Source of the DNA: Longimicrobiales bacterium | GTDB taxonomy: Bacteria; Gemmatimonadota; Gemmatimonadetes; Longimicrobiales; Gaopeijiaceae | Reading direction: 5' to 3' | DNA length: 64,000 nt | NCBI GenBank assembly: GCA_028278645.1 | Contig: JANQDZ010000034.1 | Span: forward strand, 1 to 64,000 | Part shown: piece by piece, positions 58,143 to 59,357 of the stretch | Position numbering within the stretch: position 1 is the first letter of the stretch | Layout of the letters: the number at the start of each line of letters is the position of its first letter | The notes under the pieces: generated by a model | What the model saw: only the letters and a program-made list of their open reading frames with translations | Database searches by the model: none | Told to the model about the DNA's origin: nothing | Position numbers and translations under genes: made by a program

Positions 58143-58238
58143 CGGGGCGAGGGGTCAATGGACCGCTACCCGTAGGTCCGTATCTGTCCCACAGGGCCAA
58201 CATCTAGTGTTGAGATACCGGTGCTACGGAAATATTCC

Positions 58239-58267
58239 TTGCACCGAACTATGTTGGGCTTTACAAT
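58239..58267 (+). promoter_or_regulatory. Sigma70 promoter for a probable non-coding RNA
   Basis: TTGCAC (58239-58244), a 17-base spacer and TACAAT (58262-58267) form one of the best promoters in the window. It lies between two convergent genes and points at no ORF of normal size. Confidence 0.65.
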
Positions 58268-58273
58268 CCGAGC

Positions 58274-58561
58274 GGCCGAAAGAGATTCGGCTTGGGCCGT
58301 CGAAGGAGGTCCAGGGTGATTCCCTTCGATCGGACCGCGGGCCGAGAGAGCCCGCCGGTGCTCCGCCCGAAAGTCCCTTTTGAAAAGGAGGTGATCCTTG
58401 TCTAGTCCGAGTATTCTGTGCAACCTGGCACGGGCAAGCGATCATTAAGGACGGCACCTAAGCCGAACGATGTGATCAGACTGTTCGCGCCGGCGTAGTG
58501 ATCGCGCTGGGTTGCGGCAGAAACGAAAAAGCGCCACCGGAAGCCTGACCGGTGGCGCTTT
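58274..58561 (+). ncRNA. Probable structured RNA of about 290 nt
   Basis: The stretch from the promoter above to a strong terminator has no normal ORF. It would form several hairpins: GCCGAA/TTCGGC near 58275-58291, TCGAAGG/CCTTCGA near 58299-58328, and GCGGGC/GCCCGC near 58336-58354. At 58383-58397 it contains AAAAGGAGGTGATCC, an exact complement of the usual 16S rRNA 3' tail. A TTG at 58398 opens a 16-codon frame that could be a leader peptide. I do not recognise the RNA as RNase P, tmRNA, 6S or SRP RNA. The bases 58143-58238 before the promoter show nothing. Confidence 0.45.
58528..58561. terminator. Bidirectional intrinsic terminator
   Basis: AAAGCGCCACCGG (58528-58540) pairs perfectly with CCGGTGGCGCTTT (58549-58561) over 13 bp around an 8-base loop. 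T-rich tracts follow on both strands (CTTTCCTTTG on plus, CTTTTTCGTTT on minus), so it can end both the RNA and the thioredoxin-fold gene transcript. Confidence 0.85.
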
Positions 58562-58613
58562 CCTTTGTTGGCCCCTGGTGTTTGTCGGTTCCCGCCCTTG
58601 GAAACCTCGGCTA

Positions 58614-59189
58614 TCACCCGTGGTACGCAGGCTCGTTCCCGGGTTTCCACTTGATATTGCACCCGATGCTCGACCGGTGTGGCTCCGGCACCGGCTCCCC
58701 GGCCAGGACCAAGTCCACGGCGGCCCTCAGGTCGTCCCCCGTCACGGGGACATCGTTCCCGGGGCGACTCCCGTCGAACTGCCCTCTGTAAGCCAGCTCC
58801 CTCCTGCCGTCGAACAGGAAGAAGTCCGGCGTGCAGGCCGCTCGGTACGCTTTTGCGACTTCTTGCGTGGCGTCGAGGAGGTATGGAAACGTGTAGCCCC
58901 CCTCTTCCGCCTCTTTTTTCATCCCGGCGGGGCCATCCTGAGGGTAATTGTCCAGATCATTCGAAACGATGGCGACGACGTCCAGGCCCTTCTCCTGGTA
59001 CTCCCGGGCAAAAGCTCCGAATTCCTTTCTGATATGCACCACAAAAGGGCAATGGGAGCAAATAAAAGCCACCAGGAGTCCGGGCCCCTGAAAGCTGTCG
59101 AGGGAATATTCAATTCCGGAGAAGTCAGAAAGGGAAAAGTCCGGGGCCTCCATTCCCAGGGGGGGCATGGTGGACGGCGTGGCGGCCAT
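58614..59189 (-). CDS. Thioredoxin-fold protein (AhpC/TSA/redoxin type)
   Basis: ATG 59189 with GAGGAAT upstream gives 191 residues. The redoxin fold is clear (GMEAPDFSLSDFSG at the start, FICSHCPFVVH as the CxxC site near residue 45, YLLDATQEVAKAYRA, ACTPDFFLF). There is no signal peptide, so it is cytoplasmic. The family is a thiol peroxidase/oxidoreductase of unknown substrate. Confidence 0.88.
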   Translation of the reverse strand: MAATPSTMPPLGMEAPDFSLSDFSGIEYSLDSFQGPGLLVAFICSHCPFVVHIRKEFGAFAREYQEKGLDVVAIVSNDLDNYPQDGPAGMKKEAEEGGYTFPYLLDATQEVAKAYRAACTPDFFLFDGRRELAYRGQFDGSRPGNDVPVTGDDLRAAVDLVLAGEPVPEPHRSSIGCNIKWKPGNEPAYHG

Positions 59190-59357
59190 TTGTATTCCTC
59201 GTTTCAGGGCACTGTTGGCTTCGGGTTTGAAAAGAATAGAAGCCAGGATCACGACATGGTAGAACCTCTTGAATTCCTTAAAGTTTCAATTATTTTAAAT
59301 TGAGATATTTCTTGGATCAACCCCGTCGATCCAGCTCGACGAATCGGGAGTCGCCCA

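Follow-up and report, generated by a model that had tools for sequence, protein, structure and literature searches.

A predicted structured RNA gene of Gemmatimonadota with an extended Shine-Dalgarno sequence and a mini-ORF: a possible ribosome-operated switch

What is encoded at a locus where a promoter and a terminator enclose no ordinary gene, and where a short sequence is complementary to the 3' end of 16S ribosomal RNA (rRNA)? This question is raised by positions 58239-58567 of a stretch of 64,000 nucleotides (nt) from a Longimicrobiales bacterium (assembly GCA_028278645.1, contig JANQDZ010000034.1), which was analysed as a whole and is called the window below. Comparison with related genomes strongly supports the existence of a predicted stand-alone structured RNA gene at this position. 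It contains an extended Shine-Dalgarno (SD) sequence followed by a very short open reading frame (mini-ORF). As one joint proposal, which we put forward tentatively, the gene would be ancestral to most of the sampled Gemmatimonadota class and would specify an autonomous, regulatory RNA. Its best explanation would be an RNA switch operated by ribosomes that translate a dummy minigene, with the peptide as a by-product. The main features of the gene are as follows.

58239..58267, plus strand: sigma-70 type promoter read from the sequence, TTGCAC-17-TACAAT (-35 box 58239-58244, 17-nt spacer, -10 box 58262-58267)
58274..58567, plus strand: predicted transcript of ~290 nt, its start placed from the -10 box and its end from the terminator; homologues exist
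58384..58397, plus strand: extended SD sequence AAAGGAGGTGATCC, complementary to the 16S 3' tail
58398..58448, plus strand: mini-ORF MSSPSILCNLARASDH* with a UUG start, 16 codons here and usually 20 in relatives
58528..58561, plus strand: intrinsic terminator with a stem of 13 base pairs
58275..58360, plus strand: 5' domain that contains hairpins; its conservation is lower, and relatives with a promoter near -87 probably lack it

Conservation of the RNA gene

Homologues of the RNA were found by BLAST in 46 of 59 near relatives, and a pattern scan of GTDB genome DNA returned at least 113 stretches, nearly all from Gemmatimonadota (related genomes are included in the sequence counts throughout). 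When 370 genomes of the phylum were searched with strict filters and a covariance model made from 74 sequences, the RNA was detected in 230 of them, nearly always in a single copy, and a laxer inspection of 40 hard cases revealed true members of divergent sequence, in Gemmatimonadaceae as well as in further families. The locus is kept across the class, and this conservation excludes a chance occurrence.

The initial annotation, made from the sequence alone, had proposed an RNA of ~290 nt between a near-consensus promoter and a terminator. All elements that it named are present at the positions it gave, including the terminator, and the conservation of promoter, terminator and homologues argues for a real RNA gene of about this length. 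A promoter of the TTG-N-TA...T type exists at a similar place in 76% of 115 distinct loci of relatives and in 3% of shuffled sequences. The wording "near-consensus" is generous, since only 8 of 12 consensus bases are matched; the promoter was not picked up by a consensus scan. Its position relative to the SD sequence is approximately -150 to -120, and near -87 in some clades. At the loci L015, L019, L039, L044, L047, L057 and L093 it lies about 60 nt nearer to the SD sequence, which implies that the RNA is shorter there and lacks the 5' domain. Hairpins resembling terminators are found in 97 of 110 relatives' loci; for a control region the figure is 11 of 101. The terminator stem covaries strongly, with 248 double-change cells in an alignment of 111 sequences and 65 after shuffling, and the folding energy of the region 58265-58566 has a z of -4.2 when compared to shuffles.

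Translation of the mini-ORF

The 16-codon frame beginning with TTG, which had been noticed already in the initial annotation, is present, and the evolution of its stop codon supports its translation. Among 91 distinct ORFs of 20 codons the stop is TAA in 37, TGA in 29 and TAG in 25. By parsimony, on a tree built without that codon, about 28 changes of the stop codon have occurred in this set, all from stop to stop. Base 1 of the stop is unchanged, while bases 2 and 3 have changed 15 and 17 times, between A and G only, and TGG is absent; codons 20 and 22, which adjoin the stop, vary freely. The length of the ORF ranges from 11 to 23 codons, and a stop follows whether it is shorter or longer. 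These comparisons strongly support that the ORF is translated and that its stop codon is under selection. The start codon is UUG or GUG at all loci and never AUG, although the SD sequence and the start (but not the stop) belonged to some of the search patterns, so that the invariance of both is partly built in; TTG was demanded by the pattern scan, but no such condition applied to the 30 loci from BLAST or to the 23 from the covariance model.

In most near members residue 2 is Ser, and the core resembles ARASDRR. The peptides of different families are unlike each other (for example MSTDQRTARIAVSR, MSTESRVACGC and MSVELSGQPARASDCLEAV), and across the complete ORF frame 0 is not enriched in synonymous differences: the ratios of synonymous to non-synonymous differences are 80/195, 87/169 and 89/203 in frames 0, 1 and 2, respectively. 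In L100 and L108 an insertion of one base in the bulge region described below (AACGGGCAA) shifts the frame and alters the downstream peptide, while GGGCAAGCG is intact and a stop is reached at codon 24. Preservation of start and stop with a peptide that is largely not preserved suggests that translation matters rather than the peptide.

The extended Shine-Dalgarno sequence

The stretch AAAAGGAGGTGATCC, described initially as a 15-nt match to the 16S 3' end, exists at the locus, and an unusually long SD sequence is indeed present. However, the 16S genes of relatives end with ...GCGGCTGGATCACCTCCTTTCT(G), i.e. ...GGATCACCTCCTTTCT, and therefore the contiguous pairing comprises 14 nt (AAAGGAGGTGATCC) and not 15; the tail was taken from relatives, and the 16S gene of the genome under study is truncated by the end of its contig. 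The 64-kilobase window contains GGAGGTGATC once, and the genome contains AAGGAGGTGATCC four times. The long SD sequence is kept across the class, and the 16S tail is the sole notable complementarity between the RNA and 16S rRNA. Outside GGAGGU, the SD bases may owe their conservation to pairing with GAUCGCC of the ORF itself just as much as to pairing with the tail.

Secondary structure

At the level of RNA, the mini-ORF and its surroundings contain the following elements.

58420..58429, plus strand: 5' arm of helix H1, within the mini-ORF
58506..58515, plus strand: 3' arm of helix H1
58430..58437, plus strand: bulge ACGGGCAA of 8 nt between H1 and H2, with an almost invariant GGGCA
58438..58446, plus strand: 5' arm of helix H2, of which 58440-58446 doubles as an anti-SD element, the partner of 58390-58396 in helix H0
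58497..58505, plus strand: 3' arm of helix H2
58452..58465, plus strand: small hairpin H4 (CGGC/GCCG), with the stop codon in its loop in most relatives
58365..58368, plus strand: GCCC, complementary to GGGC of the ORF bulge (58432-58435), a possible pseudoknot

Strong covariation was detected for H1, where 9 of 10 pairs show two-sided changes and the 111-sequence alignment contains 139 double-change cells, compared to 41 when shuffled. Over H1, H2 and H4 together, 86% of the cells are paired, while slid controls reach 24-42%. H2 itself is paired in 82% of cells, and its support is moderate. The putative pseudoknot GCCC:GGGC is paired in 99% of cells and H0, formed by GGUGAUC of the SD sequence with GAUCGCC of the ORF, in 95%; both are nearly invariant in the near set and for this reason cannot be tested by covariation there. 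With regard to a possible riboswitch, the RNA does have invariant unpaired bases. In most loci the stop codon follows closely on the anti-SD element: of 135 distinct loci, 118 have the end of the best SD complement no more than 15 nt before the stop (nearly always 9-14 nt, and 11 nt in 87).

Distant families offer a further view of the pairing between SD sequence and ORF. In family f9 (L187, L189, L191 and L192) the SD sequence is GGAGGUGGUC in place of GGAGGUGAUC and the ORF partner, changed to match, is GACUGCC, which corresponds to a compensatory replacement of A-U by G-C. The 16S tail was looked for in the f9 genomes and was not found there; if the tail of this family were the canonical GGAUCACC, the A-to-G change in the SD sequence would serve H0. 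In family f10 the complementarity between SD sequence and ORF spans GGAGG as well. Minimum-energy folds contain H0 in L012, L187 and L195, and the hairpin between ORF and 3' arm in L190 and L194. L195 and L200 (family f4) represent a minimal RNA, with an ORF of 11 codons closely followed by a GC-rich terminator-like hairpin and a T run, and could be useful for structural work.

Two other candidate elements were dismissed. A third helix, CUGUU/GGCAG, considered as a second pseudoknot, is paired in 68% of cells, the same as in shuffles, and the 5' hairpin as defined was unsupported in the alignment used.

A ribosome-operated switch

How could these elements work together? We propose that a 30S subunit would load on the strong SD sequence and initiate weakly at UUG or GUG. 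The translating ribosome would then traverse the ORF, thereby opening H1/H2 or H0, and would halt at the stop codon just past the anti-SD element (GAUCGCC and its variants), covering this element and leaving the SD sequence open. Without ribosomes, the anti-SD element could fold back on the SD sequence. The element would thus have two alternative partners, the SD sequence, which would hide the initiation site (H0), and the 3' arm, which would leave it free (H2), a scheme that the alignments support in part. Since the ribosome would open the helices and park over the anti-SD element, initiation and termination would set the conformation of the RNA, and the ribosome-dependent exposure of the SD sequence would result in a translated and an untranslated state governed by the initiation capacity of the cell. 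The switch would probably act in trans. Its output could be the exposure of the 5' or the 3' arm to targets in trans, or RNA stability and differential decay, as a readout of 30S or initiation status. The wider statement, that this is a housekeeping RNA of the entire class in which the translating of a dummy ORF and not the peptide is conserved, and which as a trans-acting, ribosome-operated switch reports initiation capacity, goes further and is doubtful.

Several observations weigh against this proposal. H2 often contains a C-C mismatch, and its double changes are not above those of slid controls. H0 does not covary in the near set, and family f9 contributes a single event, the change from A-U to G-C. 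The pairing of SD sequence and ORF beats shuffles (P<=0.05) in just 26% of all 128 loci, and in most of the loci of the distant families. Codons 2-8 are mildly enriched in synonymous differences when read in frame 0 (52/81, compared to 38/84 and 24/120 in the other frames), and thus the N-terminal residues may have a role. Finally, L146 (Longimicrobiaceae YX3bin18), alone among the members, has no early stop and an ORF of 81 codons, either by real loss or by an assembly error.

If correct, the proposal is of interest for several reasons. The phylum would gain a near-universal RNA gene, and our literature searches found no earlier description of an RNA of this kind there. Further, it would be a natural case of a reading frame kept for its length and the position of its stop, and not for its product, as known from attenuators, here outside an operon. 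As a natural probe, the RNA could report on free 30S subunits or initiation status. Last, it provides a concrete gene for deletion in cultured Gemmatimonas.

Alternative explanations

The most serious competitor is a dual-function small RNA (sRNA) or a plain micropeptide gene, in which a peptide of 16-21 residues (MSSPSTxSSLARASDRRFGx) would be the product and the RNA structure would control its translation. The conserved start and stop, the excess in codons 2-8, and Ser2 and the ARASDRR-like core of most near members are in line with such a gene. However, the peptides are almost unrelated between families, ARASDRR coincides with the near-invariant RNA element GGGCAAGCGAUCGCC, changes from D to G and from R to W leave the RNA pairs intact, and an overall synonymous excess is absent. 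We consider this explanation unlikely.

It is improbable that the RNA merely titrates or senses 30S subunits, with the 14-nt SD sequence capturing free 30S or reporting an intact 16S tail and the ORF just releasing the subunits. Class-wide conservation of the long SD sequence and the restriction of notable 16S complementarity to the tail would suit this function, of which the titration of ribosomes had been suggested by the initial annotation, but pure titration would need neither a covarying helix between ORF and 3' arm nor a stop just past the anti-SD element. Moreover, H0 also accounts for the SD bases beyond GGAGGU, and the A-to-G change in the f9 SD sequence weakens the presumed pairing with the tail while it strengthens H0.

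Still less probable is that the RNA is structured and non-coding, with an ORF present only incidentally. Strong conservation and covariation at the RNA level would be explained in this way, but not the approximately 28 stop-codon switches that never led to a sense codon, nor the persistence of SD sequence, start and stop through changes in length and sequence.

Very improbable is control of a downstream gene in cis, as by a leader or attenuator. The mini-ORF, the alternative structures and the terminator do resemble an attenuator, but the neighbour is convergent here and in approximately 41 loci and the downstream genes differ among clades. At the locus under study the gene upstream is co-directional and encodes an M50B peptidase, and the gene downstream is convergent and encodes a redoxin; a convergent neighbour of the redoxin family is also what the ~41 loci have in common, while other neighbours change from clade to clade. 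In the comparison of neighbours across clades no co-directional downstream gene was found to be kept. The term leader peptide, used initially for the ORF product, fits the ORF as such but not this genomic context.

Comparison to known systems

Pseudoknots that sequester SD sequences are known from ribosomal-protein messenger RNAs (alpha operon and rpsO of Escherichia coli) and from SAM-II riboswitches, and each of them controls a full gene. The RNA described here is similar in that the SD sequence and the start are located in or near a possible pseudoknot with coding sequence, the pseudoknot being putative in our case. Like transfer-messenger RNA (tmRNA), it is a structured RNA holding an ORF of tag length. 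However, tmRNA has a tRNA-like domain and initiates no translation, and the genome harbours a separate tmRNA.

In Staphylococcus aureus, an extended SD sequence together with a weak start is a signature of regulatory initiation (PMC13009471). Those sites share with the mini-ORF the extended pairing between SD and anti-SD by a non-canonical start and the short ORFs with regulatory translation, but their upstream ORF acts in cis on the downstream gene, while the RNA described here appears to be autonomous. Released leader RNAs and peptides acting in trans are known as well, namely rnTrpL and peTrpL of Sinorhizobium meliloti (PMC7298713). rnTrpL, too, is small and terminated, contains a short ORF that is translated and can form alternative structures; it functions in trans, which is probable for the RNA described here. 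It differs in that it is released from the leader of the trp operon, whereas in our case there is no downstream operon and families do not share a conserved peptide. Dual-function sRNAs and other sRNAs with coding ORFs have been described (PMC5521070). These are stand-alone sRNAs with ORFs of 10-50 codons, as found here, but at our locus the stop is conserved and the peptide largely is not.

Rejected assignments and minor observations

A degenerate rRNA spacer had been considered as an origin of the 16S match. Nowhere in the window is there a match to an rRNA model of Rfam, the flanks are the M50B peptidase and redoxin genes, the SD-tail complementarity is the only notable likeness to 16S, and the locus is conserved independently; these results speak against such an origin. 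Rfam 15 gave no match in the window at the gathering score, and for 58230-58580 even the best sub-threshold hits fall well short of the cut-offs. tmRNA was rejected, the RF00023 match of this genome being on another contig and none in the window. 6S RNA was also rejected, RF00013 being without a match here, although this model is insensitive, since it found no 6S RNA in six relatives (G000, G006, G010, G013, G024 and G027, where 6S RNA may be absent or too divergent) and had matches in only 6 of 14 control genomes.

A type I toxin does not fit either, because the peptide, as read from the sequence, is short, hydrophilic and basic and not a hydrophobic membrane peptide. Mimicry of 16S rRNA (GCAAGCG compared to the 530-loop) was no better than in shuffles, and the pattern was not matched in viral contigs, which speaks against phage spread. 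A serine-sensing leader peptide, considered for the many Ser codons in the near set, was dropped because several members hold only one or two Ser.

Matches of the pattern scan in Syntrophaceae, Lachnospiraceae and Actinomadura were not member-like. Three loci labelled Gammaproteobacteria (L041, L091 and L133) and one labelled Euryarchaeota (L044) are on contigs resembling Gemmatimonadota; having the same sequence and the same kind of neighbours, they are probably from mislabelled bins. Finally, an ORF of 263 amino acids (58512-59303, plus strand) arises as the antisense shadow of the minus-strand redoxin gene and recurs in relatives as a false conserved plus-strand ORF.
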